Below are positions 20,826 through 32,886 of a stretch of DNA of 64,000 bases, piece after piece. Both the position numbers and the translations under genes were made by a program. Source of the DNA: Mycobacterium mantenii. GTDB taxonomy: Bacteria; Actinomycetota; Actinomycetes; Mycobacteriales; Mycobacteriaceae. Under the pieces are notes generated by a model that saw only the letters and a program-made list of their open reading frames with translations, made no database searches and was not told the origin of the DNA. The stretch is from the NCBI RefSeq assembly GCF_010731775.1, contig NZ_AP022590.1, positions 4,216,001-4,280,000 on the forward strand, written 5' to 3'. How positions within the stretch are numbered: position 1 is the first letter of the stretch; each line of letters opens with the position of its first letter.

Positions 20826-22412
20826 CTATTCCTCGCCCCCCGCGCCGACGATGGCATCGGACAGGCCCGCACCCCTGCGCATCGGCGGGGTGCCGCGGTG
20901 TACCCACTCCCGTGGGCGCAGCCGCCAGGTCCGGCGCGCGTACTCCAGCTCGGTGTACGGCCACTGGGTGACGATGCGCCCGGACGGCGATCGGAAGTAG
21001 CTGTCGCACTGCGTCCAGATGGTGCGCTCCAGATCCGCGGAAAGTACATCGTTGTAACGCTTTTCGGCCTCGGGTCGCACGTCGAGATAGCCACCGCGGC
21101 GCGCCAGGCGGCTCAGCGCGCTGGCGACCAGTCGCGCCCCGGCCTCGAGGATGTAGACGATGGAGTTGCCACCCTGGTTGGTGTTGGGGCCGTAGAGCAT
21201 GAAGAAATTCGGGAATCCGCTGACCGCCACGCCCAGGTAGGCGCTCGGGTCGTCGCCCCAGTGCTCGTGCAGGCTTTCGCCGCCTCGTCCGATTACCTCG
21301 ATGCCGGCGAGGTAGCGGCTGGTTTGGAATCCGGTGGCGCACACGATGGCGTCGGCGTCCACCGACTCGCCGCCGAGGGTAGCGATCGACGTCTCGGTAA
21401 CTCGTGCGATCGGTTCGGTGACCAAATCGACGTGGTCCTTCTGTAGCGCGCGATAGTAGTCATCGCCGAGCAGCACCCGCTTGCAGCGGAATGGATAGTC
21501 GGGAGTCAGGGCGAGACGAAGCCGCTCGTCGGCGACGGTGCGCTCGAGAAACGAGGTTGCGACGCGTGAGCGACTGGCCACTTGTGGGTCTTCGACCGCG
21601 CTTCCGGCAAAGTCGTGGAACTGCTTCCAGATTCGCCACCGTTCCCTACGGGCCGCCCACGGATGGCGACGGAACCTCGCCAGCTCCCGAGGACTGAACG
21701 GACGGTCGTCCTTGGGCACCATCCACGGGGGCGTGCGCTGGAAAACGGTGACACGCGAGGCGATTCGGGCGAGCTCCGGCACCACCTGCACCGCGCTGGC
21801 GCCGGTGCCGATCACCGCAACCTTCTTGCCACCCAAGTCCACGCCAGGCTCCCACGCGGACGTGTGCATCAGGTGGCCGCGGTAGCCGTCGAGGCCGTCG
21901 ATGTCAGGCAGCCGGGGAGGGCCGAACAACCCGACGGCGCTCACTACGACATCGGCCCGCAGCGTGGTGACGGTGTCGCTGTTCGCTTGCTGCAGCTGCA
22001 ATTCCCACTGGCAGCTGTCCTCGTTCCATTGCGCCCGCCGTACGTAGGTCCGCAGGTTCAGGTGCCGGCGCAGGTCGAAGTCGTCGACCACCGACTCCAG
22101 GTAGGCCAGAATCTCAGGCTGCCGCGCATACGTGCGGCTCCAGTTACGGTTCAGCGCGAACGAGAACGAGTACAGGTGGCTCTGCACGTCGCAGGCGGCG
22201 CCGGGGTAGGTGTTGCGCCGCCAGGTGCCGCCGACGCCGTCGGCGGCCTCGATGATCACCAGATCGTCGATTCCCCTGCGGCGCAGCGCGACTGCAGCGG
22301 CGACTCCGCCGAAGCCGGCCCCGATGATCGCGACCCGCGGCTGCGGACGCCGCCGTGTTGCCGCTTCGAGCCGGCCGAGGGAATACCAGCGTGCGGCTGC
22401 GCGGCTCGTCAT
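20826..22412 (-). CDS. Flavin-containing monooxygenase, Baeyer-Villiger type (BVMO 2)
   Basis: 528 aa class B flavoprotein monooxygenase. The FAD motif is IIGAGFGGVAAA near residue 30, the type I BVMO fingerprint is YRGHLMHTSAW, and the NADPH motif VIGTGASAVQ follows. Expected chemistry is NADPH/O2-dependent oxygen insertion into a ketone. The ATG overlaps the stop of the upstream monooxygenase (ATGA), so the two are translationally coupled. Two tandem BVMOs suggest that different ring or side-chain ketones of one substrate are handled. Confidence 0.87.
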   Translation of the reverse strand: MTSRAAARWYSLGRLEAATRRRPQPRVAIIGAGFGGVAAAVALRRRGIDDLVIIEAADGVGGTWRRNTYPGAACDVQSHLYSFSFALNRNWSRTYARQPEILAYLESVVDDFDLRRHLNLRTYVRRAQWNEDSCQWELQLQQANSDTVTTLRADVVVSAVGLFGPPRLPDIDGLDGYRGHLMHTSAWEPGVDLGGKKVAVIGTGASAVQVVPELARIASRVTVFQRTPPWMVPKDDRPFSPRELARFRRHPWAARRERWRIWKQFHDFAGSAVEDPQVASRSRVATSFLERTVADERLRLALTPDYPFRCKRVLLGDDYYRALQKDHVDLVTEPIARVTETSIATLGGESVDADAIVCATGFQTSRYLAGIEVIGRGGESLHEHWGDDPSAYLGVAVSGFPNFFMLYGPNTNQGGNSIVYILEAGARLVASALSRLARRGGYLDVRPEAEKRYNDVLSADLERTIWTQCDSYFRSPSGRIVTQWPYTELEYARRTWRLRPREWVHRGTPPMRRGAGLSDAIVGAGGEE

Positions 22413-24208
22413 GGTGCAACCTTCTTGTTTCGCAGATTCAGTCCCTCCAGCGCGCCGCGGTCACGCCAGCTCGCGAGGATATCGGCGTATTCGGTTGGCG
22501 TTCCGAAGAAGAAGCTGCCCTGCCGCGTCTTGGCGTCGGCCTGCCCCTCACGGTTGTAGTAGCCGGGGGTGCAGGTCTTGGCCCGCTCGGCGGTCAAAGC
22601 GGAGCGCGCCAGCACGGTATCAACCCAGGCGGCCTCGGCATCGGCCGAGGCCTCGAGCTCGGTGACGCCTTGCTTGAGGGCCCGGGCGATGATCCATGCG
22701 ACGTGGCGGGCCTGCACGTCGAGCAGATAGGGAAAGTTCACGGTGAGTCCGGACTGGGCGATGCTTTCGATAAAACAGTTCGGGAAACCGTGTACGCAAA
22801 GACCGTGAAGGGTCCGAACGCCGTCCCGCCATGCGTCGGTCAACGTCAGACCGTCACGGCCTATCACCTCGAAGCCCGTGCGCCTACTGTAGTCAGTGCC
22901 CACCTCGAATCCCGTGGCGAAAATCAAACAGTCCAGCCCGTATTCGACCCCGTCGACCACTACGCCGGCCTCGGTGATGCGCTCGACACCGCGGCCCCGG
23001 GTGTCAACCAACCTGACGTTTTCGCGATTGAAAGTTTGTAGATACTCGTCGTGAAAGCACGGCCGCTTGCAGAAGTACCCATACCACGGCTTGAGCGCCT
23101 CCGCGGTCGTGCGGTCAGACACGAGGGCGTCCACGCGTGCACGGATCTCTTCCATCTGGGCGAAGTCAGCCAGTTCCACTTCGCGGACCCGTTGCAGTGG
23201 ATCGGAACCGTTGCCGGTCTCGTGGCGCATCACCGGCAGCTTTCGCGTGATGCTGGTCCAGGCGTCGGCGACCAAGTCTTCGTCGGCGTGTCCTCCGGCG
23301 GTGAGGATTTGGAAGTTCTCGATCCGTCTCTGTTGCCAGCCGGGCGACAGGGTCTTCGCCCACTGAGGATCGGTCGGCCCATTCGCCCGCACATTCACCG
23401 TCGATGGTGTGCGTTGAAACACGTGGAGCTGCTGACTTTTTCGGGCTAAATGTGGCACACACTGGATGGCGGTAGCGCCGGTGCCGATGATGCCGACACG
23501 CTTGTCGGCCAGGTGTTCAAGGTCTTCTCCCGTGTATCGGTAATCCCAGCGGCTGGTGTGGAACATGTGACCGCGAAACGCTGCTATTCCCGGTATTCCG
23601 GGCAGCTTGGGTTTGTTCAGATAGCCGTTGGCCATCGACACGAAGCGGGCCCGCATCGCGTCGCCGTGATCCGTGCAAATAACCCACAGGGAATCCTCTG
23701 GATCCCAACGGATCTCGCGTACCTCAGTCCGCAGGCAGGCGTCGCGGTAGAGATCGTAGTGCTCGGCGATGCGCTGGCAGTGCGCGAAGATCTCCGCGCC
23801 CTTGGCGTACTTCTCGGTCGGGATGTAGCCAAGTTCCTCCAGCAGCGGCATGTACACATACGACTCGACGTCACAGGCGATGCCGGGATAGCGATTCCAA
23901 TACCAGGTGCCGCCCACGTCGGCGGCCTTATCGATCAGTCGCACACTGTCCACGCCGTGTTCGCGCAACCGTGCACCTGTCAGCAGGCCGCCGAAGCCGG
24001 CGCCTATCACCGCGACGTCGACAGTGTCGGTAAGTGGGTCGCGGCTGTAGCGCGGATCGCACCATGGGTCCTCGCCGAAGCGAGCGAACCGGCCCGCCAC
24101 CTCTACATACTGTTGGATGCCATCAGGCCGTAGCCGTCGCTGCCTCTCCTGGTCGTACTTTCGTCGTAGCGCCTCTTCGTCGAATGGCAGGCCGTCCGCT
24201 GTCGTCAC
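22409..24208 (-). CDS. Baeyer-Villiger monooxygenase, cyclohexanone-monooxygenase-like (BVMO 1)
   Basis: 599 aa type I BVMO. It has a longer N-terminal extension typical of cyclopentadecanone/steroid-type enzymes, then VIGAGFGGLLTG near residue 67, the fingerprint FRGHMFHTSRWDY and VGIIGTGATAIQ. The C-terminal FPNCFIESIAQSG and PGYYNREGQ segments are also typical. It should convert a cyclic or long-chain ketone to a lactone or ester. The GTG start follows an AAGGGG site and shares one base with a short upstream frame. The promoter region holds operator copy A. Confidence 0.87.
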   Translation of the reverse strand: MTTADGLPFDEEALRRKYDQERQRRLRPDGIQQYVEVAGRFARFGEDPWCDPRYSRDPLTDTVDVAVIGAGFGGLLTGARLREHGVDSVRLIDKAADVGGTWYWNRYPGIACDVESYVYMPLLEELGYIPTEKYAKGAEIFAHCQRIAEHYDLYRDACLRTEVREIRWDPEDSLWVICTDHGDAMRARFVSMANGYLNKPKLPGIPGIAAFRGHMFHTSRWDYRYTGEDLEHLADKRVGIIGTGATAIQCVPHLARKSQQLHVFQRTPSTVNVRANGPTDPQWAKTLSPGWQQRRIENFQILTAGGHADEDLVADAWTSITRKLPVMRHETGNGSDPLQRVREVELADFAQMEEIRARVDALVSDRTTAEALKPWYGYFCKRPCFHDEYLQTFNRENVRLVDTRGRGVERITEAGVVVDGVEYGLDCLIFATGFEVGTDYSRRTGFEVIGRDGLTLTDAWRDGVRTLHGLCVHGFPNCFIESIAQSGLTVNFPYLLDVQARHVAWIIARALKQGVTELEASADAEAAWVDTVLARSALTAERAKTCTPGYYNREGQADAKTRQGSFFFGTPTEYADILASWRDRGALEGLNLRNKKVAP

Positions 24209-24291
24209 TATCTACGACCCCTTCTACCGGCTCGCTGGGCGGAGCCGAGTCGCCCAGCGGATGTGCGCACCGAGGCATTCACCGCGAGCAT
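24208..24291 (-). CDS. Possible short leader ORF of the BVMO operon
   Basis: A 27-codon frame starts at an ATG inside operator copy A and ends with TAG at 24210-24208, whose last base is the first base of the BVMO 1 GTG start. The peptide is Arg-rich at its end (RAGRRGRR). No clear ribosome site precedes it. It is listed because the other operator-headed units carry similar short frames touching the first gene; taken alone it would be weak. Confidence 0.3.
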   Translation of the reverse strand: MLAVNASVRTSAGRLGSAQRAGRRGRR

Positions 24292-24312
24292 ATAATCAAT
24301 CGCTTGATCATA
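24291..24312. promoter_or_regulatory. Operator copy A (ATCAA-N4-TTGAT family)
   Basis: A 22-bp dyad with arms TATAATCAA and TTGATCATA separated by TCGC; one mismatch between the arms. It lies 83 bp upstream of the BVMO 1 start, in the gap after the first TetR gene. The same core recurs at 25180, 27417 and 32859, always at an operon head in this cluster. Confidence 0.75.
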
Positions 24313-24354
24313 TCAATGGGTCCGCCCTTCTGCTCACCGTTGATCCACAAAGGC

Positions 24355-25029
24355 TCAACGCCGGGGTGGACGCCTGCCGACAGCCGCGCGGCGCGCTGGT
24401 GCCGCGCCACCTCCTGAGAACAACGCACCCCTGATTAACGGCTTCGCCGCCGCAAGCGCTCGCTGGTACGCCTTGGGCGAGGCCGTTGCGGCCAGTTCGG
24501 TCAGGCCATACAGCAGCGCATAGATCACCTCGACGATGGCTCGCGCCTGGGCGCGGTCGACCGAGGGCTGTGTGCGGTACGCGTCGTGGATCACGTCCTC
24601 GATGATTTTGCGTAGCGCATGCAGTTCGATGTCGCCACCCCCGCCCACCGAAAGCTCCGCGGCGCCCTGGGCGCGGATCGCCCACTCGAACGCCGCCAGG
24701 TCGGGATACTCACGCATCAGCCGACCCGACTCATCCAGTACGGCCTCTATCCGGTCGACTGCGTCGCCGGGCTGCTCGGCGGCTCGACGCAACCGGGGCA
24801 ACGCGATGTCGGTTCTCGCCGCGATGGCCGCGTTGATGAGCTCCGTCTTGTTCGGGAAGTAGTTGTAGAGACTGGCGCTGGTGACGTTGGCTGAGCGAGC
24901 GATTTCGCGGATCGTCGCCCGCGAATAACCCATCTCGGCTACACACCGCATCGTCGCAGCGATGATGCGGTGACGCGTCTGCTCGCCGCTCGCACCGACA
25001 GGCCGGCCCAGTTGAGTTGTCGTCGTCAT
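24355..25029 (-). CDS. TetR-family regulator 1 of the BVMO/P450 cluster
   Basis: 224 aa TetR repressor. The N-terminus MTTTTQLGRPVGASGEQTR leads into the helix-turn-helix (ATIREIARSANVTSASLYNY) and a FPNKTELI linker. It is closely similar to the second TetR of the cluster (27538) throughout the DNA-binding domain, so both may read the same operator. The start at 25029 matches that paralogue; longer in-frame starts add 52 unlike residues. Operator copy B lies 151 bp upstream, consistent with autoregulation. Confidence 0.87.
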   Translation of the reverse strand: MTTTTQLGRPVGASGEQTRHRIIAATMRCVAEMGYSRATIREIARSANVTSASLYNYFPNKTELINAAIAARTDIALPRLRRAAEQPGDAVDRIEAVLDESGRLMREYPDLAAFEWAIRAQGAAELSVGGGGDIELHALRKIIEDVIHDAYRTQPSVDRAQARAIVEVIYALLYGLTELAATASPKAYQRALAAAKPLIRGALFSGGGAAPARRAAVGRRPPRR

Positions 25030-25179
25030 ATCCCCAGCCAAATCGGGCAAGCGGCCGCTCCTGCGTCTATCGGTCGCCCGCAGCGATCGTCGACGGGTAC
25101 GGGGACGGGGCGCTGCGCGGCTAAGGCCGATATTAGGCGCCATGGACGTCTGGATCACCTCCATCGGCGTGCTGTTAAT

Positions 25180-25201
25180 TAACAATCGATCGCTTAATAT
25201 G
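25180..25201. promoter_or_regulatory. Operator copy B, between TetR 1 and the epimerase operon
   Basis: Read on the minus strand, arms ATTAA and TCGAT flank GCGA, matching the consensus ATCAA-N4-TTGAT with two changes. It shares the stretch AAGCGAT-GATT with copy A and GATCGATT with copy C. It lies in the 315-bp divergent gap (25030-25344) between TetR 1 and the epimerase gene and could control both directions. The rest of the gap holds only the short leader frame at 25280. Confidence 0.55.
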
Positions 25202-25279
25202 GTGCGCGCGGGCAGCCCTGCGCCGACAAGCGATTGGTTCTGCGCCCTTCGCGCGGCGACTCACCAGGAGGCGTTGATC

Positions 25280-25348
25280 ATGAGGAGTTGGCGACCTGCG
25301 ATGCCAGTGCGAACGTGCAGGCGTCATGAGCTGGGCGGGTGCCGATGA
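25280..25348 (+). CDS. Short coupled leader ORF before the epimerase gene
   Basis: A 22-codon frame (MRSWRPAMPVRTCRR...) has a perfect AGGAGG 8 nt before its ATG. Its TGA overlaps the ATG of the epimerase gene (ATGA), while the epimerase has only a weak ribosome site of its own. This looks like a translated leader that delivers ribosomes to the main gene. The peptide is basic with two Cys and has no recognisable domain. Confidence 0.5.
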   Translation: MRSWRPAMPVRTCRRHELGGCR

Positions 25349-26373
25349 AGGTCGCGGTGACCGGTCCTGCCGGCTACGTCGGCGTGAACCTGGTGCGCCT
25401 GCTGATTGAGCGCGGCAACCATGTCGTGGCCATCGATCTCAAAGACTCCAACCGCATTTCGCATCACAACCTCACAACGGTGCGCGCCGACATCCTCGAT
25501 GCCGCCGCGATGCGTACGGCGTTGGATGGCGTCGAAGTCGTGTTCCACCTGGCCGCAGTCATCACGATGGCCCGCCGTGACGATACGGCTTGGCGGATCA
25601 ACACCGAGGGCGTGCGCAGCGTCGCCGAGGCAGCGCTGGGGACGGGTGTGCGCAGAATGGTGCTCTGCAGCTCCTTGAACGCGTTCGACCCACGCAATCA
25701 GGAGGGACCGGTCGACGAATGCACCCAGCGATCCACCGCCAGCGACCTTCCGCTCTATGACCGCTCGAAATGGCAAGGCGAATGTGAGTTTTCGAGCGTG
25801 GTTGAGCGAGGCCTCGACGGGGTTATCGTCAACCCCACCGGCGTGGTCGGACCGGTCGATTACGGTCCGGTGCGATTGAATCGGATGCTTCTCGAGGCGG
25901 CCCGCGGCCGGATGCTCGTCGCGATCGGCGGCGGCTTTGACATGGTCGACGTGCGCGACGTCGCATCGGGCTTGTGTGCGGCAGCCGAACACGGCCGAAC
26001 TGGCGAAAACTACATCTTGGGCGGACATTTCGTTTCGTTTATCGATGCTTTCCGCATAGCGGCCGCCTGCACCGGTCGGCGCGGCCCTTTGGTTGCCCTG
26101 CCACTGCCGGTGCTGAAGCGATGCGCGCCGCTGCTCGACACCCTCGGTACCTGGCTGCGCCGCGACATGCTCGGCGCAGCGATGATCGCTACTCTCGTCA
26201 ACGCTCCGCGCGTGGACGGGGCCAAGGCCCGAAGCGAGCTCGGTCACCGACCACGTGACACCGAAACCGCCATCGCCGATCTGGTTTCGTTTTTCCAACA
26301 CATCGGCCGCCTACCAACACCACGCAAGGTCAGGACGACCGCCGATCAGGTGGCGCCGCCCTATGACCGCTGA
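25345..26373 (+). CDS. NAD-dependent epimerase / 3-beta-HSD-like extended SDR
   Basis: 342 aa extended SDR. The Rossmann motif is TGPAGYVG at the N-terminus, then VFHLAAVIT, LCSSLNAF and catalytic YDRSKWQGE. This group includes NAD-dependent epimerases, dihydroflavonol reductases and 3-beta-hydroxysteroid dehydrogenase/isomerases. Its place among BVMOs, a CYP125 and a luciferase-like enzyme makes a sterol- or terpenoid-alcohol dehydrogenase plausible. The ATG at 25345 is preferred over GTG 25339. The luciferase-like gene follows after 11 bp. Confidence 0.83.
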   Translation: MKVAVTGPAGYVGVNLVRLLIERGNHVVAIDLKDSNRISHHNLTTVRADILDAAAMRTALDGVEVVFHLAAVITMARRDDTAWRINTEGVRSVAEAALGTGVRRMVLCSSLNAFDPRNQEGPVDECTQRSTASDLPLYDRSKWQGECEFSSVVERGLDGVIVNPTGVVGPVDYGPVRLNRMLLEAARGRMLVAIGGGFDMVDVRDVASGLCAAAEHGRTGENYILGGHFVSFIDAFRIAAACTGRRGPLVALPLPVLKRCAPLLDTLGTWLRRDMLGAAMIATLVNAPRVDGAKARSELGHRPRDTETAIADLVSFFQHIGRLPTPRKVRTTADQVAPPYDR

Positions 26374-26384
26374 AAGAGTAATCC

Positions 26385-27416
26385 ATGGGTTTGATGACCG
26401 CGTTGCGCTTCAATATGACCAACGTCGCCGATCCTGCGGGAAGGCACGCGGATCGCTACCAGGCCGCCCTGGAGATGGCCGCCTATGCCGATCAGCACGG
26501 CTTCACCGGTATCAGTTGCGAGGAGCACCATCTGGCGGCGACCGGGTGGTTACCCTCACCACTGATCATGGCCGCGGCCCTGGCGGGGCGGACAACTCGG
26601 GTGCGCATCAGCATCAACGCCCTGCTGATCACTCTCTACGACCCAGTGCGGCTGGCCGAAGACATCGCGGTGCTGGACAACCTTTCCAACGGAAGGTTCA
26701 GTTTCGTTGCGGGCATGGGTTATCGGCCCGAGGAATACGCGGCGGTAGGCAAAGACTGGACGCAGCGTGGTGCGTTGATGGATCGCTGTATCGAGGTGCT
26801 GCTCGCCGCGTGGAGTGACGATCCGTTCGAGTACAACGGACGAATCGTCAATGTCACCCCCAAACCACACACGCGTCCTCGGCCGTTCTTTTTCGTCGGT
26901 GGTATGAGCCCTGCCGCGGCACGGCGCGCGGCGAGGTTCGGGCTTCCTTTCGCGCCGCCGATGGCGATGCCCGAAGTCGAAGCGGTCTACGCCGACGAAC
27001 TTGAAAAGCACGGCCACCGTGGTTTCGTCTACCGCCCGGAGAACGGAAGCACCGTCACGTTGTTGAGCTTCGACCCGGACACCGCCTGGAGTAACTATGG
27101 GCACCTGATCCTGAATGAAGCCGTGGAATACAGCCAGTGGAGGCGCCCCGGAGTCACCCGTCCCCACGACATGGCGGCACACACCGTCGAAGAGGTGCGC
27201 AGCCGCAACATCGTCGAGATCCTCACCCCCGAGGAGATGCTCGAGCAGATCGCCCATGGCAGAAGAGAAGTCGTGATGAACCCCCTCATCGGCGGACTGC
27301 CGCTGGAGGAAGGCTGGGCAAGCCTGCATCTGCTCACAGAGAAGGTGCTGCCAGCGGTCAAGGCACCCGCAGTGAGTGCATCCCCAGCGGGACCGGCTGT
27401 CGGATCGCACCCATGA
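26385..27416 (+). CDS. LLM-class flavin-dependent oxidoreductase (luciferase-like)
   Basis: 343 aa bacterial-luciferase-like monooxygenase. It begins with the TIM-barrel strand LRFNMTNVA, then the EEHHLAATGW motif, RISINALLITLYDPVRLAEDIAVLDNLS and RFSFVAGMGYR, all typical of the family. It would use reduced flavin and O2 on a ketone, alkane or related substrate. The ATG has GAAAGAG upstream and lies 11 bp after the epimerase stop, forming a two-gene unit. Operator copy C begins one base after its stop. Confidence 0.87.
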   Translation: MGLMTALRFNMTNVADPAGRHADRYQAALEMAAYADQHGFTGISCEEHHLAATGWLPSPLIMAAALAGRTTRVRISINALLITLYDPVRLAEDIAVLDNLSNGRFSFVAGMGYRPEEYAAVGKDWTQRGALMDRCIEVLLAAWSDDPFEYNGRIVNVTPKPHTRPRPFFFVGGMSPAAARRAARFGLPFAPPMAMPEVEAVYADELEKHGHRGFVYRPENGSTVTLLSFDPDTAWSNYGHLILNEAVEYSQWRRPGVTRPHDMAAHTVEEVRSRNIVEILTPEEMLEQIAHGRREVVMNPLIGGLPLEEGWASLHLLTEKVLPAVKAPAVSASPAGPAVGSHP

Positions 27417-27438
27417 TATAATCAACTGATCGATTAAT
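27417..27438. promoter_or_regulatory. Operator copy C, upstream of TetR 2
   Basis: Arms TATAATCAA and TCGATTAAT flank CTGA. The left arm is identical to copy A; the right has one change from TTGAT. It starts directly after the luciferase-like stop codon and lies 35 bp before a short leader frame and about 100 bp before the TetR 2 start. Confidence 0.65.
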
Positions 27439-27472
27439 AGTTGCAGCACCATTCGTCGCAGGAAGTGCAGGC

Positions 27473-27541
27473 ATGTACGTCGAGTTGTTTGTGTCTGATG
27501 ACGCCGCGGCACCGTCTCCGACCAGAAGGCCCGGATCATGA
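27473..27541 (+). CDS. Short coupled leader ORF before TetR 2
   Basis: A 22-codon frame (MYVELFVSDDAAAPSPT...) has AGGAAG 7 nt before its ATG. Its TGA overlaps the TetR 2 ATG (ATGA). TetR 2 has a second ribosome site (AGAAGG) inside this frame. The layout repeats that of the epimerase leader. Confidence 0.45.
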   Translation: MYVELFVSDDAAAPSPTRRPGS

Positions 27542-28191
27542 CCGTCCCGTCGTCACAGCTCGGCCGGCCGGTCGGTGCCAACGGCGAGGAGACGCGCCGG
27601 CGGATCATCACCGCAACCATGCGTTGCGTGGCCGAGGCCGGATATTCACAGGCAAGCATCCGCGAAATCGCCCGTGGCGCCGGCATGACCAGCGGCAGCC
27701 TGTATCACTATTTCCCCAACAAGGCCGAACTGCTCAAGGCGACGGTCAAGGAAATAGAGGAACTCGTGTTCCCGCGGCTACGCGCGGCCGCCACCGGTGG
27801 CGGGGACGTCGTCGACCGCCTCGAAGCGGTGCTCGACGAGTCCGATCGGTTGATGGGCGAATATCCCTACCTGGCCGCGTTCGAACGCGCCATCCGCGCC
27901 GAAAGCGCCGCCTACCTGCGCAGCGGCGACCCCAACCGCACCGGTTTCAAACCCTTGCGGGGCATCATCAAGGAAATCATCGAAGACGCCCGGGCGCAGG
28001 GGGCATTGGCCGCCGACATCGATGCCGCAGGGACCATCGATGCGCTCTACGCACTGACGCGCGGCCTCACCGAACAGGCGGCCAACCTGACGCCGCGCGC
28101 CTATCACGCCACGCTCGGCGCGGCCAAACAGCTGATCCGAGGAACACTGTTCGCGCCCGACGCCAAGCGCCAATCCGCACGGCGCCGTTGA
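27538..28191 (+). CDS. TetR-family regulator 2 of the BVMO/P450 cluster
   Basis: 217 aa TetR repressor and close paralogue of TetR 1. The shared N-terminus is QLGRPVGANGEETRRRII, the helix-turn-helix SIREIARGAGMTSGSLYHYF and the linker FPNKAELL. The first gene of the P450/FadD unit, it has operator copy C about 100 bp upstream and probably autoregulates. The recognition helices of the two TetRs are nearly the same, while the ligand domains differ more, suggesting one operator read by two sensors. Confidence 0.87.
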   Translation: MTVPSSQLGRPVGANGEETRRRIITATMRCVAEAGYSQASIREIARGAGMTSGSLYHYFPNKAELLKATVKEIEELVFPRLRAAATGGGDVVDRLEAVLDESDRLMGEYPYLAAFERAIRAESAAYLRSGDPNRTGFKPLRGIIKEIIEDARAQGALAADIDAAGTIDALYALTRGLTEQAANLTPRAYHATLGAAKQLIRGTLFAPDAKRQSARRR

Positions 28192-28242
28192 CGTCGGGCC
28201 GTACCAACCGAATCCGCTGTCGCTATACGAAGGAATACCGAG

Positions 28243-29502
28243 ATGGCCGATCCGAACATTCCCGCCGGTTTCGATTTCACCGATCCCGACATCTACGCAC
28301 AGCGCCTTCCCGTCGACGAACTCGCCGTGCTGCGGCGGACGGCGCCGATCTGGTGGAACGAGCAGCCGGTCGGCAAGGGCGGGTTCAACGACGGCGGCTT
28401 CTGGGTGGTGACCAAGCACAAGGATGTCAGAGAGGTATCGCTACGCAACGACGTCTTCTCCACCTACGAGAACACGGCGCTCCCGAGATATCCGGATGAT
28501 GTCGAGCGCGAGAACATCGACGCGGCGCGCGCGTCGATCCTCAACATGGATGCCCCACATCACACCCGGTTGCGCAAGATCATCTCCCGCGCCTTCACCC
28601 CGCGAGCCGTCGGACGCCTGCGCGACGAACTCAACGAGGGCGCACGGGCCATCGTCAAAGCCGCTGCAGCCCAAGGGTCCGGGGACTTCGTCGAGCAGGT
28701 GGCCCACGATCTGCCGCTGCAGGCCATCGCCGGGCTACTCGGTGTGCCGCCGGAGGACCGCACGAAGCTGTTCCGCTGGGCGGACGAAATGACCGGCAGC
28801 GAAGACCCCGAATACGCCGACAGCGACGGCCAAGCGTCGTCGGTCCAGGTGCTGACCTACGCCATGGAGATGGCCGACATCAAGGCGAAGGATCCTGGTG
28901 ACGACATTGTCACCACACTGGTGAAGGCAGACATTGACGGAGAGAAGTTGTCGGAAACGGAATTTGGCTTCTTCGTTCTCACACTGGCCGTGGCGGGAAA
29001 CGAGACCACGCGTCACTCCATTACTCAGGGCATGATGGCGTTCAGCGAATTTCCGCACCAGTGGGAGCTGTACAAGCGCCTACGGCCCGAGACCGCGGCC
29101 GACGAGATCGTGCGCTGGGCAACTCCGATTACCGCATTTCAGCGCACGGCGCTAGAGGACACCGAGCTTTCCGGCGTGCAGATCAAGAAGGGCGAGCGGG
29201 TGGTGTTGTTCTACCGCTCGGCCAACTTTGACGACGAGGTGTTCGAAGACCCCTATACATTCAATGTCCTCCGAAGTCCTAACCCACAGTTGGGCTTTGG
29301 CGGCACCGGGGCACACTACTGCATCGGCGCAAACCTGGCGCGGATGACTATCAACCTCATCTTCAACGCCATCGCCGACCAGATGCCCAATCTGCGACCG
29401 CTGTCACCGCCGGAGCGGCTGCGCTCGGGATGGCTCAACGGCATCAAGCACTGGCAGGTGGACTACACCGGCGCCGGAGCCGCGCACACCGCGGCGCAGT
29501 GA
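28243..29502 (+). CDS. cyp125: CYP125-family cytochrome P450
   Basis: 419 aa P450 that reads as a close relative of mycobacterial CYP125, the steroid C26/C27 monooxygenase that starts cholesterol side-chain oxidation. Shared features are the N-terminal PAGFDFTDPDIYA, WWNEQPVGKGGFNDGGFWVV, LNMDAPHHTRLRKIISRAF, the I-helix AGNETTR (251-257), ExxR at 288-291 and the haem ligand Cys360 in GFGGTGAHYCIG. It lies 51 bp after TetR 2 and overlaps the acyl-CoA synthetase gene by 4 bp. The kst/mce4 cholesterol genes that usually accompany it are not in this window, so it may be a paralogue for another sterol-like substrate. Confidence 0.9.
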   Translation: MADPNIPAGFDFTDPDIYAQRLPVDELAVLRRTAPIWWNEQPVGKGGFNDGGFWVVTKHKDVREVSLRNDVFSTYENTALPRYPDDVERENIDAARASILNMDAPHHTRLRKIISRAFTPRAVGRLRDELNEGARAIVKAAAAQGSGDFVEQVAHDLPLQAIAGLLGVPPEDRTKLFRWADEMTGSEDPEYADSDGQASSVQVLTYAMEMADIKAKDPGDDIVTTLVKADIDGEKLSETEFGFFVLTLAVAGNETTRHSITQGMMAFSEFPHQWELYKRLRPETAADEIVRWATPITAFQRTALEDTELSGVQIKKGERVVLFYRSANFDDEVFEDPYTFNVLRSPNPQLGFGGTGAHYCIGANLARMTINLIFNAIADQMPNLRPLSPPERLRSGWLNGIKHWQVDYTGAGAAHTAAQ

Positions 29503-31154
29503 CGGCCGCGCCGGGGATGTCGCGCCGAGTCACTCCGGCGCGCCGCGTGGCCGACGTTCTGTCACGCGTCCGAAAGGAGACCTGGGCGCTATATCAGGTC
29601 GGCCGTGCCGGGGCACTGCGGCCGATGCCGCTGCGCCGACTTCCCGAAATGTTCCAGGCCATGCGCGCATACGGCCCGACAGGAGGCGCGGTGCGCTCCG
29701 CGGCCCTGCGTTTCGGCGATCGGACCGCACTGATCGACGAACACGGCCCGCTGAGCTTCGTCGAGCTGGACACCCGTTCCAACGCGCTGGCTAATGCGTG
29801 GCGTGGCCGAGGGCTGTGCAGCGGTGACGGCGTGGCCATCCTGGCGCGCAATCATCGTGGCTTCGTCGACGCGCTGTTTGCCGCCGCCAAGAGCGGGGCG
29901 CGAATCGTCCTCCTCAACACCGACTTCGGTGCCGACCAGCTCCGCGACGTGTTGGCGCGGGAGGGCGCCGACCTGCTGGTGCACGACGCCGAGTACGTGG
30001 ATGCGGTCACCGGGATCGACTTGCGGCTGGGATGTGTCGCCGCGTGGAACGACACGCCGACATCGGAGAGCCTCGACGGCCTAATCAAGCGCGGCGATCC
30101 ATCGCCGCCGCCCCCCTCGGCAACCAGGGCCCGGTTGGTCATTTTGACCAGCGGCACCACTGGAAGCCCGAAGGGGGCCCCTCGCACGGAGCCGCGGTCG
30201 CTGCTGCCGGCGGGCGGCCTGTTGAGCCAGGCGCCGTTTCGGGCGGGTGAGGTCACCGAGTGCTGCGTACCGCTGTTTCACGCGCTGGGCTTCGGCCATC
30301 TGATGCTCAGTCTGCTGATGGGTTCGACCCTGGTGGTCCGCCGCCGCTTCGACCCGGTCCACACCCTGCAAAGCCTCGCCGAACATCGCGCGACGGCGAT
30401 GGTCGCTGTGCCGATCATGCTGCGCCGGCTCATCGACCTTGGGCCGCAGGAATTCTCGGGCAAGGATCTCTCGGCGCTGCGGATTGCTTTCGTCGCCGGC
30501 TCGCAGCTTGGCGGTGCGCTGTGCCGGGAGACCATGGATGTCTTCGGCCCGGTCGTCTACAACATGTACGGGTCGACCGAGGTTGCCTACGCCACGCTCG
30601 CCACACCTGTGGACCTGGCGGTCGAGCCCGGCTGTGTCGGCCGGGTGGTGCCCGGCACGGCCGTAAGACTCTACGACGACCGCGGCCGGCCGATACCGGT
30701 CGGATCACCGGGCCGGATCTTCGTCGGCAATGACATCACGTTCGACGGGTACACCGGCGGGGGCTCTAAGGAATCCATCGACGGCCTACTGGCCACCGGT
30801 GATATCGGCCATTTCGATGCCGACGGCAGGCTCTTCATCGACGGCCGCGAGGACGACATGATCGTCTCCGGCGGAGAGAATGTCTTTCCCGCCGAGGTCG
30901 AGGACGTGCTGGCCGCCCATCCGGCCATCCGCGAGGCGGCGGTCGTCGCTGTGCATGACGACGAGTACGGGCAGCGGCTGGGCAGCTTCATCGTGCTGCA
31001 GCCCGGCGCGACGCTCACCGAGCAGGACGTCAAGGACATTGTGCGACAAGGGCTTGCGCGGTTCAAAGTACCGCGCGACGTCCGCTTCGTCGAAGCGCTG
31101 CCGCGCAATCCTACCGGCAAGGTCGTCAAGCGCCTGCTCGACGGACAGGGGTAG
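29499..31154 (+). CDS. Acyl-CoA synthetase (FadD12/FadD2-like)
   Basis: 551 aa adenylate-forming ligase. The P-loop motif is LTSGTTGSPKGAP, followed by YNMYGSTEVAYA, TGDIGHFDADG, GREDDMIVSGGENVFPAEVE and the catalytic lysine in PRNPTGKVVKRLL. It resembles FadD12/FadD2-type mycobacterial ligases. The GTG overlaps the P450 stop (GTGA), so the pair is coupled: the P450 would oxidise a terminal methyl to an acid and this ligase would convert it to the CoA ester. Confidence 0.88.
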   Translation: MTAAPGMSRRVTPARRVADVLSRVRKETWALYQVGRAGALRPMPLRRLPEMFQAMRAYGPTGGAVRSAALRFGDRTALIDEHGPLSFVELDTRSNALANAWRGRGLCSGDGVAILARNHRGFVDALFAAAKSGARIVLLNTDFGADQLRDVLAREGADLLVHDAEYVDAVTGIDLRLGCVAAWNDTPTSESLDGLIKRGDPSPPPPSATRARLVILTSGTTGSPKGAPRTEPRSLLPAGGLLSQAPFRAGEVTECCVPLFHALGFGHLMLSLLMGSTLVVRRRFDPVHTLQSLAEHRATAMVAVPIMLRRLIDLGPQEFSGKDLSALRIAFVAGSQLGGALCRETMDVFGPVVYNMYGSTEVAYATLATPVDLAVEPGCVGRVVPGTAVRLYDDRGRPIPVGSPGRIFVGNDITFDGYTGGGSKESIDGLLATGDIGHFDADGRLFIDGREDDMIVSGGENVFPAEVEDVLAAHPAIREAAVVAVHDDEYGQRLGSFIVLQPGATLTEQDVKDIVRQGLARFKVPRDVRFVEALPRNPTGKVVKRLLDGQG

Positions 31155-31169
31155 CCCGCGCGCCGGACG

Positions 31170-32129
31170 CTACAGTGACCGCAGCCGGCGGATCCGGTCG
31201 GCGATGACTCGCTGTGAAACGCCCGCGTGCGGCGCCAGCCATTCGAACGCGTGCGGACAGCCCGGATGCACGTGCAACTCGGTCGGCACGCCCGCAGTTG
31301 TCAGTCGGCGCGCGTAGGCGATGTCTTCGTCGCGGAAGATGTCGAGGTCTCCGACGTCAAGGTAGGCCGGGGGTAGCCCGGATAGGTCGGTGGCCCGGGC
31401 CGGGGCGGCATACGGCGCGACGTCATCACGGCCGACAGACTCGCCCAGCAAGGCCGCCCACCCGGTGACGTTGTCGTTGTGGGTCCACGTCAACAACTGT
31501 GCCAACTCCGAATCCGGCGTCAGGGTCCGATCATCGAGCATCGGATACGCCAGGAGTTGTAGGGCGATCGGCGGGCCGTCGCGGTCGCGGGCCAGCAGGC
31601 ACACGGCCGCTGCCAGGCCACCCCCGGCGCTGTCGCCCATGACCGCCAGCCGTGCCGGATCGATCTGCAGCTCGGCGCTGCGAGCGGCCAGCCACAGCAG
31701 CGCCGCATAGCAGTCCTCGACTGGCACCGGATGAGGATGTTCGGGCGCGACGCGGTAGTCGACCATCAGCATCGGAACCCCCGACACGGAGACGTAGTGG
31801 CGCACCGCGGCGTCGTACAACAAGCCGAGCTCGTCGAGCCCGAGAATCATTCCGCCGCCGTGCAGATACAGTGCCGCGCTTCCCGGTTGATGCGACCCGG
31901 CTCGCCGATACCAACTCACTGGCAGCGTGGAGCCGTCGTGCGTGCGGATCGCGAAGCGCCGCACCTCGACACCTTCGACCGACGGCAGAAAACTGGCCGC
32001 TTGATCGAACATTCGGCGTGCCTTGGCCCTGCGGGTCGCGACGTCGCCAGGCGGGGGTGGTTCGGTGGGACCTGGGGGTGCCAGCGCGGACAGTGCCGCC
32101 GCGACCTCGAGATCAATTCGGAGTGCCAC
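31170..32129 (-). CDS. HSL-family alpha/beta-hydrolase esterase
   Basis: 319 aa esterase of the hormone-sensitive-lipase group. The oxyanion motif HGGG, nucleophile motif GDSAGGG, acid in DVGDLDIFRDED and His in CPHAFE are all present. The GTG at 32129 gives a full-length protein; its ribosome site is weak. It follows the cupin-like gene by 74 bp on the same strand and so probably belongs to the operator D unit. It could open lactones or esters made by the two BVMOs. Confidence 0.87.
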   Translation of the reverse strand: MALRIDLEVAAALSALAPPGPTEPPPPGDVATRRAKARRMFDQAASFLPSVEGVEVRRFAIRTHDGSTLPVSWYRRAGSHQPGSAALYLHGGGMILGLDELGLLYDAAVRHYVSVSGVPMLMVDYRVAPEHPHPVPVEDCYAALLWLAARSAELQIDPARLAVMGDSAGGGLAAAVCLLARDRDGPPIALQLLAYPMLDDRTLTPDSELAQLLTWTHNDNVTGWAALLGESVGRDDVAPYAAPARATDLSGLPPAYLDVGDLDIFRDEDIAYARRLTTAGVPTELHVHPGCPHAFEWLAPHAGVSQRVIADRIRRLRSL

Positions 32130-32203
32130 TTGCGGTCAGCGATCTGCCGCCAAAGGCGCTGCGAAACCAGTGGATTCGCCCACATCTGGCCGCCACCGCC
32201 ATG

Positions 32204-32683
32204 TCACCCAGACACCTGCTCTGCTCCGAAGTCGGCAACCAGCGAGTCGATGGTGATCTGGGCGACGACGTTCATGTCCGCGTCGTAGATCTCGTAGAGC
32301 AGACCCGTCGGCGAGTCCGGCCGTGCACCGAAGTAGACCAGGCCGCCGTTGTCTCCACCGCGCTCGAGGTGCGGCTTTTGGTCGTTGCCGGTCAGGGCGT
32401 AGTCACCGGCGCGGCGGAAACGGTGGTTGCCGACCGAGCCGTCGTTCTCGACGTCCCATAGGTGTTGCTCGCCATCCAGGACAATGACGCTGGTGGCGGC
32501 CGCGTGGCGGTGGATAGGGCAGTGGCCGCCATCACCTTGCCACCGCACGACCATGTCGAGGGTTGCGGCGCCCCGGTCGTAGCCCAGGATCGTATAGTCG
32601 TGGCGAATCTTGTGTCTCGAGCCTGGCCGTCCCGTGACTTCTTTCCATCGGTAGCGGGACGGGTCGAACGTGCCGTTGATCAT
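32204..32683 (-). CDS. Cupin-like protein
   Basis: 159 aa protein with a beta-rich, cupin-like profile. GGHCPIHRHAAAT followed by VIVLDGEQHLWD resembles the first metal-binding cupin motif, and HLERGGDNGGLVYFGARP the second half. No specific function can be assigned. The ATG has AGGAGG 7 nt upstream. That site lies inside the preceding short frame, whose stop overlaps this ATG (ATGA). Confidence 0.65.
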   Translation of the reverse strand: MINGTFDPSRYRWKEVTGRPGSRHKIRHDYTILGYDRGAATLDMVVRWQGDGGHCPIHRHAAATSVIVLDGEQHLWDVENDGSVGNHRFRRAGDYALTGNDQKPHLERGGDNGGLVYFGARPDSPTGLLYEIYDADMNVVAQITIDSLVADFGAEQVSG

Positions 32684-32754
32684 CGCTTGACCTCCTGACG
32701 GCGCCAGCCTGGAAGGCGATCAGCGATTCGTAGCGATGCACCGTCGCCATTCAT
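32680..32754 (-). CDS. Short ORF 2 of the operator D unit
   Basis: A 24-codon frame (MNGDGASLRIADRLPG...) starts at an ATG overlapping the stop of short ORF 1 (ATGA) and ends with a TGA overlapping the cupin-like start (ATGA). It is basic at the C-terminus. Its value as a protein is doubtful; as a ribosome relay between ORF 1 and the cupin gene the arrangement is precise. Confidence 0.4.
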   Translation of the reverse strand: MNGDGASLRIADRLPGWRRQEVKR

Positions 32755-32834
32755 CGCCGCGCTACCGCCTTGGCCGCAATCACCAGTTCCTGCAAAGCGT
32801 CCAGCTGATTCGGCAATGTCGACAGCCGACGCAT
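32751..32834 (-). CDS. Short leaderless ORF 1 of the operator D unit
   Basis: A 27-codon frame (MRRLSTLPNQLDALQELV...) predicts one amphipathic helix. Its ATG is 7 nt after a good -10 box, so it would be the leaderless 5' end of the mRNA. Its stop overlaps the start of short ORF 2. Both short ORFs together form a continuous translational relay to the cupin-like gene. Confidence 0.45.
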   Translation of the reverse strand: MRRLSTLPNQLDALQELVIAAKAVARR

Positions 32835-32841
32835 GTCGGTG

Positions 32842-32886
32842 AGCCTAATCTCGGCAGATGATGTAATCAACCGTTTGATCACATCA
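32842..32886 (-). promoter_or_regulatory. Promoter with operator copy D (best match of the family)
   Basis: Operator: TGATGTAATCAA (32859-32870), CCGT, TTGATCACATCA (32875-32886), a 28-bp dyad with a single mismatch between arms. Promoter on the minus strand: TTGATT (32870-32865) inside the operator, 17 nt, TAGGCT (32847-32842), then 7 nt to the ATG of short ORF 1. A bound repressor would cover the -35 box. The remaining sequence up to 32951 holds no gene. Confidence 0.78.

Follow-up and report, generated by a model that had tools for sequence, protein, structure and literature searches.

A candidate local TetR regulon around a CYP125 gene of Mycobacterium mantenii and its probable shared operator

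The systems closest to the one considered here are the KstR and KstR2 regulons, each built on a TetR repressor and a palindromic operator (KstR-type motif TNNAACNNGTTNNA), and EthR/EthA, in which a TetR adjoins a Baeyer–Villiger monooxygenase (BVMO). We analysed a 64-kb window of Mycobacterium mantenii DNA, that is, the whole stretch of 64,000 nucleotides, which is part of a host chromosome examined as a single contig of 6.19 Mb. Here, four dyads, three strong and one degenerate, accompany the genes for two TetR proteins (TetR1 and TetR2), two BVMO-like enzymes, a CYP125-family cytochrome P450 and an acyl-CoA ligase. We conclude that these four sites are very probably operators of the single TetR subfamily formed by TetR1 and TetR2, and that they define a separate, local and autoregulated regulon. 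The operator motif strings had no match in the open-access literature, and open-access work on TetRs with BVMO or CYP125 genes, CYP125 and KstR paralogues, Mce3R, TetR heterodimers and exchange between paralogues, judging by the titles and abstract openings of the top matches, does not describe the operator.

The window resembles the KstR and KstR2 systems in pairing TetR repressors with palindromic sites, and KstR-type sites do precede another CYP125 gene of this genome. It differs in its operator core, in being local, in having two regulators and in scoring far under the KstR cut-off: against the KstR NCBIfam model NF033703 (cut-off 280), TetR1 and TetR2 reach 57.8 and 52.5 bits. KstR on DNA is the first structural match of TetR1 by E-value, with a low TM-score of 0.49. 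The window CYP125 is close to the cholesterol enzyme, which would favour placing the window genes in the KstR cholesterol regulon and treating the dyads as incidental. However, no KstR-type site lies before the window CYP125, the only perfect match to the KstR pattern in the window falls inside the epimerase gene, and one-mismatch matches stand at chance level (6 against 5.3 expected). The host genome has four CYP125 copies, the window copy being 69–73% identical to the other three. A scan around these three paralogues, which covered perfect matches only, placed two KstR-type sites directly upstream of the one at genome position 5173463 (7353 and 7432 in locus L176) and one site about 2.4 kb upstream of that at 1358313 (11973 in L175), and found none in the 16 kb surrounding that at 3585419 (L177). 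With no KstR-type site before this CYP125 and two before another copy, elsewhere in the genome, we rejected KstR control of the window genes as extremely improbable; the separation from KstR claimed in a preliminary description of this DNA stands.

Other comparisons concern the regulators. As in EthR/EthA, TetR1 adjoins a BVMO gene (BVMO1), and EthR2 is among the structural matches of TetR2; the target genes of EthR and EthR2 are other ones, and PMC4482099 presents the EthR motif as larger and more complex. The double TetR Mce3R (Rv1963c) likewise combines TetR halves that are not identical with an operator that is asymmetric (PMC11667970), but it is one fused protein with 25-bp non-palindromic sites, whereas the window has two genes and a dyad. 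Two TetR domains in one chain do not occur here: the separate genes encode 225 and 217 amino acids, with one TetR_N stretch each. Bacillus FadR, which is of the TetR type and was solved with stearoyl-CoA, heads the structural matches of TetR2 and ranks near the top of those of TetR1, yet sequence identity is only 15–21% and its ligand is not transferable. A further paper, PMC12455991, concerns a different TetR.

Four dyads and the promoter-like boxes around them

The core ATCAA-N4-TTGAT, allowing at most one mismatch, occurs at three places in the window (24295, 27421 and 32866), two of them exact. In 100 shuffles of the 64-kb sequence, the mean was 0.37 core matches and a single shuffle reached three. 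These places belong to three near-perfect forms of TAATCAA-N4-TTGATTA: site 1 (24293..24310, TAATCAATCGCTTGATCA) upstream of BVMO1, site 3 (27419..27436, TAATCAACTGATCGATTA) preceding TetR2, and site 4 (32864..32881, TAATCAACCGTTTGATCA). The last lies within a 28-bp dyad (32859–32886) that has 12-bp arms with one mismatched pair and a non-palindromic spacer. Site 2 (25179..25199, TTAACAATCGATCGCTTAATA), which separates TetR1 from a unit encoding an epimerase and a luciferase-like (LLM) flavin monooxygenase, is a degenerate dyad whose core, AACAA-TCGA-TCGCT, departs from the ten-base core at three positions. The preliminary description had reported four ATCAA-N4-TTGAT dyads, one at the head of each unit. 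The common form fits sites 1, 3 and 4 and fails at 25180, although a 21-bp block is conserved there; the placement is borne out, because every site lies upstream of a gene or of a divergent gene pair.

We compared the aligned intergenic regions with those of the nearest relative, Mycobacterium sp. E2733 (locus L038), in which all four sites are conserved blocks amid diverged intergenic DNA. Identity is unbroken across sites 3 and 4, site 1 has a single change that falls within the N4 spacer, and site 2 consists of 21 identical bases with diverged flanks. In L038, the epimerase gene was not found in the locus and site 2 directly precedes the LLM gene, so the site probably predates the epimerase, which would be a later insertion behind it. 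Despite its weak form, site 2 is probably functional.

Sites 1, 3 and 4 lie at promoter-like sequences. On the minus strand, site 1 fills the 18-bp spacer between a −35-like TTGATA (24316–24311) and a −10-like TATGCT (24292–24287) of BVMO1. Among the 22 loci with a readable BVMO1 start (the window counted), a dyad with at most four mismatches lies upstream in 21; by our count by eye, TTGATA or TTGATG stands directly before it in 18 of the 21 and TANNNT directly after it in 17 of the 21. At site 4, also on the minus strand, TTGATT (32870–32865) forms a −35-like box 17 bp from TAGGCT (32847–32842), a −10-like sequence conserved in L038, in agreement with the earlier account of a one-mismatch 28-bp dyad covering a −35 box. 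Site 3 is overlapped by TATAAT (27417–27422), and no clear promoter was assigned to site 2. Dyads over or between promoter boxes are the layout expected for repression by blocking RNA polymerase, and we infer that repression at these promoters would occur by occlusion.

The motif in the host genome and beside related TetRs

Strong forms of the motif are nearly confined to this cluster. The exact core occurs at seven places in the whole genome, against one for the reversed motif used as the genome background. TAATCAAN4TTGATTA, with its 14 fixed bases, occurs with at most one mismatch at four places in 6.19 Mb, and three of these are sites 1, 3 and 4. When as many as three mismatches are allowed, the count rises to 37 places, compared with 4 for the control, which indicates that weak forms are spread through the genome and strong forms are not. 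The motif is thus not equally common elsewhere, and we rejected a genome-wide scatter, as there is a single strong site outside the cluster. That dyad (TACTCAACAAGTTGATTA, spacer CAAG) lies at genome position 4753170 (about 4171 in locus L178), flanked, from our reading of the translations, by a PadR-like frame on one side and SnoaL-like and LLM-like frames on the other.

Surveying related mycobacterial genomes, as the preliminary description had proposed, revealed that the motif tracks the TetR subfamily. In a set of 198 genomes from the genus, we assigned subfamily membership at E ≤ 1e-40 and searched for the exact form TAATCAAN4TTGATYA, whose reversed control gave 0 in every genome. The subfamily is present in 61 of the 198 genomes. 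The exact motif occurs in 32, comprising 29 of the 61 genomes with a subfamily TetR and 3 of the 137 without (Fisher p 1.1e-14). In one of these three (G051, locus L167), BVMO1 adjoins the site at a contig end.

The association extends beyond the genus. Loci of TetR2 relatives were collected by protein sequence, blind to the motif, and 17 of 78 (L069–L085, with distant TetRs) were excluded from the locus-level motif, promoter, half-site and TetR comparisons. Genes in these loci were called with a simple GC-based caller, so that the start positions are estimates and a number of apparent clusters are artefacts of antisense calls. A scan of 61 loci gave 130 dyads, compared with 35 when the sequence was reversed; 55 of the loci have one dyad or more, and the dyads near TetR2 relatives span Mycobacterium, Mycolicibacterium, Mycolicibacter, Rhodococcus, Actinomadura, Frankia and Nocardia.

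Several observations, besides the degenerate core of site 2, weigh against reading the dyads as operators of this subfamily. The exact form is missing in 32 of the 61 TetR-bearing genomes; many loci have variants with two to four mismatches, so the operator varies. Of the other two genomes with the exact motif and no subfamily TetR, G030 (L171) has a site whose adjoining TetR is a distant one (34% identity over 87 residues), and in G020 the site has neither such a TetR nor BVMO1 next to it. Only the 15 best candidates per genome were scored in the genus survey. The 61-locus scan used loose limits, and with a background of 35 sites some of the 130 dyads are background; six loci have no dyad (L018, L023, L040, L055, L065 and L068), three of them being cut at a contig end near the TetR. 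One locus (L052) lacks a dyad before BVMO1, and its TetR1 and BVMO1 genes overlap. Sites between TetR1 and TetR2 in relatives, listed for loci with a divergent TetR pair less than 900 bp apart, are weak (2–8 mismatches). Finally, slow-grower sites are of common ancestry, so the counts overstate independence.

Two further sequence features were seen in relatives. Tandem dyads 57–58 bp apart (5625/5683 in L008, 5789/5846 in L011 and 5596/5654 in L015) lie between a divergent alcohol dehydrogenase gene and a PE/PGRS-type gene, in loci in which BVMO1 was not found; Pfam names were obtained for L015 only. In addition, L008, L011, L022, L024 and others have a second conserved palindrome, CGAATATATTCG, in the TetR1–TetR2 interval, where it overlaps the weak operator or lies next to it.

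A pair of related regulators and unequal half-sites

TetR1 (24355..25032, minus strand) and TetR2 (27538..28191, plus strand) are both clear TetR proteins. The TetR_N helix-turn-helix (HTH; PF00440) scores 57.4 bits in TetR1 and 61.9 bits in TetR2, above the Pfam cut-off of 24, and both models have an all-helical TetR fold (predicted local distance difference test scores of 82.7 and 85.3) that matches TetR structures. The two proteins are 56% identical. With 150 of 170 candidates in the host genome scored, the next TetR is 28% identical, and these two are the only subfamily members found. In a tree of 84 sequences, they fall together, apart from the one-TetR proteins (support 100/99), and thus share a common origin. 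All TetR1 rows group together (89/97), and the chimeric L025 falls at the base of that group (100/97); support for a TetR2 group is weaker (82/83), which leaves a single duplication likely but unproven.

Divergence is unevenly distributed along the proteins. Between the groups, identity averages 73% for the HTH and 48% for the remainder, compared with 81% and 60–66% within groups. TSASLYNYF is the recognition stretch of 21 of the 27 TetR1 rows, and TSGSLYHYF that of 25 of the 27 TetR2 rows, including TetR1 and TetR2 of the window; the near-identity of the recognition helices noted earlier is therefore borne out (SASLYNYF and SGSLYHYF). The two differing positions resemble known TetR specificity positions, a likeness that we did not use as evidence. 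Alike HTH regions and diverged ligand domains fit a pattern of same DNA, different ligands. At about 15–26% identity, TetR1 matches the structures of KstR (with the low TM-score) and of FadR types, and TetR2 those of FadR types, Rv0078 and EthR2; these model-based matches weakly hint at acyl-CoA-like ligands.

The two genes have exchanged segments in relatives. In L024, TetR1 has a helix block resembling that of TetR2, while TetR2 has an N-terminal block resembling that of TetR1, and the L025 protein is TetR2-like to around residue 90 and TetR1-like beyond. An 86-bp identical stretch is shared by the two HTH regions in L017, where block signals are weak. The longest identical stretch between the TetR genes measures 59 bases in L015, 78 in L020, 65 in L024 and 66 in L025 (outside the HTH there), compared with 14 in the window; in split contigs, it is 75 bases in E3198 and 65 in IS-1264 (125 for a partial copy). 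The weak between-gene site has opposite orientations in L017 and L014. The exchanges, the long identical stretches and the reversed site would all be explained if the inverted gene pair had undergone gene conversion or inversion, with assembly error possible for those of the contigs that end inside TetR genes. The split assemblies L018/L027 and L055/L062 also show exchange between TetR1 and TetR2, mostly of DNA-binding segments.

Were only TetR2 (or only TetR1) to read these sites, the other would have been retargeted or would sense a ligand without a DNA role here. This alternative, which we judge unlikely, gains from L182 (genome G026) and L183 (G079), which are TetR2-type loci without an adjacent TetR1 that retain the site before TetR2, and from the one-TetR genera, where the motif is of a like kind. 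Nevertheless, the site that is strongest and best conserved adjoins TetR1, before BVMO1; the helices of the two proteins differ mainly at two positions; and relatives have swapped DNA-binding segments between the two genes.

The half-sites raise a different possibility. From 57 sites of the two-TetR group and 49 of the one-TetR loci, we dropped those deep in coding regions (10 and 8, respectively) and then removed duplicates, giving 36 and 38 distinct sites that include a few chance-like matches (for example, L008 11129, L010 8867, L017 2967, L034 2118, L041 3842 and L045 8262). Group membership was assigned by kinship, so that L018, L023, L050, L052, L055 and L062 count in the two-TetR group while showing one TetR only, mostly at a contig end. 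In the two-TetR group (30 loci), half-site position 2 is not A/A in 33 of 36 distinct sites (20 A/G and 9 A/T), whereas 31 of 38 in the one-TetR loci (n = 32) are A/A (A/A in 3/36 versus 31/38, p 7e-11). Unequal half-sites in two-TetR genomes (TAATCAA with YGATCAA or similar) suggest half-site specialization or a heteromer of TetR1 and TetR2, and asymmetric sites do occur at several unrelated promoters (BVMO1, DUF, PE/alcohol dehydrogenase, and LLM in Mycolicibacter), whereas in L182 and L183, without an adjacent TetR1, the site before TetR2 is A/A. We still consider such binding quite improbable. In L024 and L027, the TetR1-side protein has a TetR2-type helix and the BVMO1 site remains asymmetric; the groups differ by one clade, so that the contrast comes close to a single evolutionary event; even where TetR1 is present, A/A is found at site 3 and at many sites lying between the TetR genes of the two-TetR group; promoter constraints may account for part of the asymmetry; and G026 (L182) has a second subfamily TetR elsewhere. 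Two other sources of asymmetry were rejected, namely the TetR1 helix alone, against which L024 and L027 count, and the promoter alone, as site 4 is equally asymmetric under a different promoter layout. As a doubtful, speculative extension, the divergent post-duplication pair in slow growers might read the unequal halves of one common operator, either jointly within a heteromer or as dimers in competition, and so integrate two ligands at one site, with recurrent exchange of DNA-binding segments keeping the two readers compatible.

Gene content and the proposed regulon

The preferred reading, in which TetR1 and TetR2 share the four operators, assigns the surrounding genes to four units. The first runs on the minus strand from BVMO1 (22409..24208), a PtlE-like enzyme that scores 822.7 bits against the PtlE-type NCBIfam model NF045818, below its cut-off of 1100, to BVMO2 (20826..22412), a second, flavin monooxygenase/BVMO-like enzyme downstream with a Pfam Pyr_redox_3/FMO-like match above cut-off, which stays beside BVMO1 in relatives. 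The second comprises TetR1 together with, on the plus strand, the NAD-dependent epimerase or 3-beta-hydroxysteroid-dehydrogenase-like gene (25345..26373) and the LLM gene (26385..27416, PF00296). The third, on the plus strand, contains TetR2, CYP125 (28243..29502) and a FadD2-like acyl-CoA ligase below the FadD2 cut-off (29499..31154). The fourth, on the minus strand, begins behind site 4 with a conserved protein (DUF, 32204..32683) that has no Pfam or NCBIfam match, followed by an alpha/beta hydrolase of the hormone-sensitive-lipase type (31170..32129, PF07859; LipP1 model below cut-off). The P450 belongs by sequence to the CYP125 family (714 bits over 411 residues to Protein Data Bank chains named cytochrome P450 125), for which C26 steroid hydroxylation would be the predicted class activity. 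Overall, the gene types look like those of a small pathway of the fat- or sterol-oxidizing kind.

This gene set is not fixed. A BVMO1–TetR1/TetR2 core that lacks CYP125 is present in many slow growers, nearly all of the fetched loci among them (L038 excepted), and three other genomes (L181, L182 and L183) have TetR2–CYP125–FadD–DUF with no TetR1 next to it, in L183 together with BVMO1. An additional subfamily TetR lies elsewhere in two of these three (G058 and G026). The DUF is 84–90% identical in the CYP125/FadD loci of relatives and adjoins BVMO1 in L183. Because each part is found apart from the other, the window joins two separable parts; the compact BVMO/CYP125/FadD regulon proposed at the outset holds in that a probably shared operator heads the units, and gives way in that relatives differ in gene content. 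In fast growers and other genera, the same type of TetR accompanies Rieske oxygenases, GMC oxidoreductases, dehydrogenases and acyl-CoA ligases. In fast growers, the one-TetR block that carries a GMC oxidoreductase (and, in L043, a Rieske oxygenase) sits between purB/P450 and purC (L043, 3127–16063; L184).

From these sequence features, we infer binding by TetR1 and TetR2, repression, a ligand and a substrate, in the following form. Dimers of TetR1 and TetR2 would occupy TAATCAA-N4-TTGATTA-like dyads over or between promoter boxes and hold off the four units, BVMO1–BVMO2, TetR1 with epimerase–LLM, TetR2–CYP125–FadD and DUF–hydrolase. As both TetR genes lie within the units held off in this way, they would be autoregulated. 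Release of the TetRs would then fall to a pathway intermediate, for which an acyl-CoA or an oxidized isoprenoid or sterol-like compound is the most plausible candidate. The sterol or terpenoid substrate and the two ligands suggested in the preliminary description would be conjectural.

The system is a variant of the well-known local TetR regulon, and the regulon reading first proposed for it is right in outline. For a pathway that contains CYP125 but lies outside the cholesterol regulon, it supplies a candidate operator together with its two regulators and a delimited set of genes. Moreover, genomes that have either one TetR or two, or whose DNA-binding segments were exchanged, form a natural series, which makes the compatibility of paralogous repressors and the role of this CYP125 directly testable.

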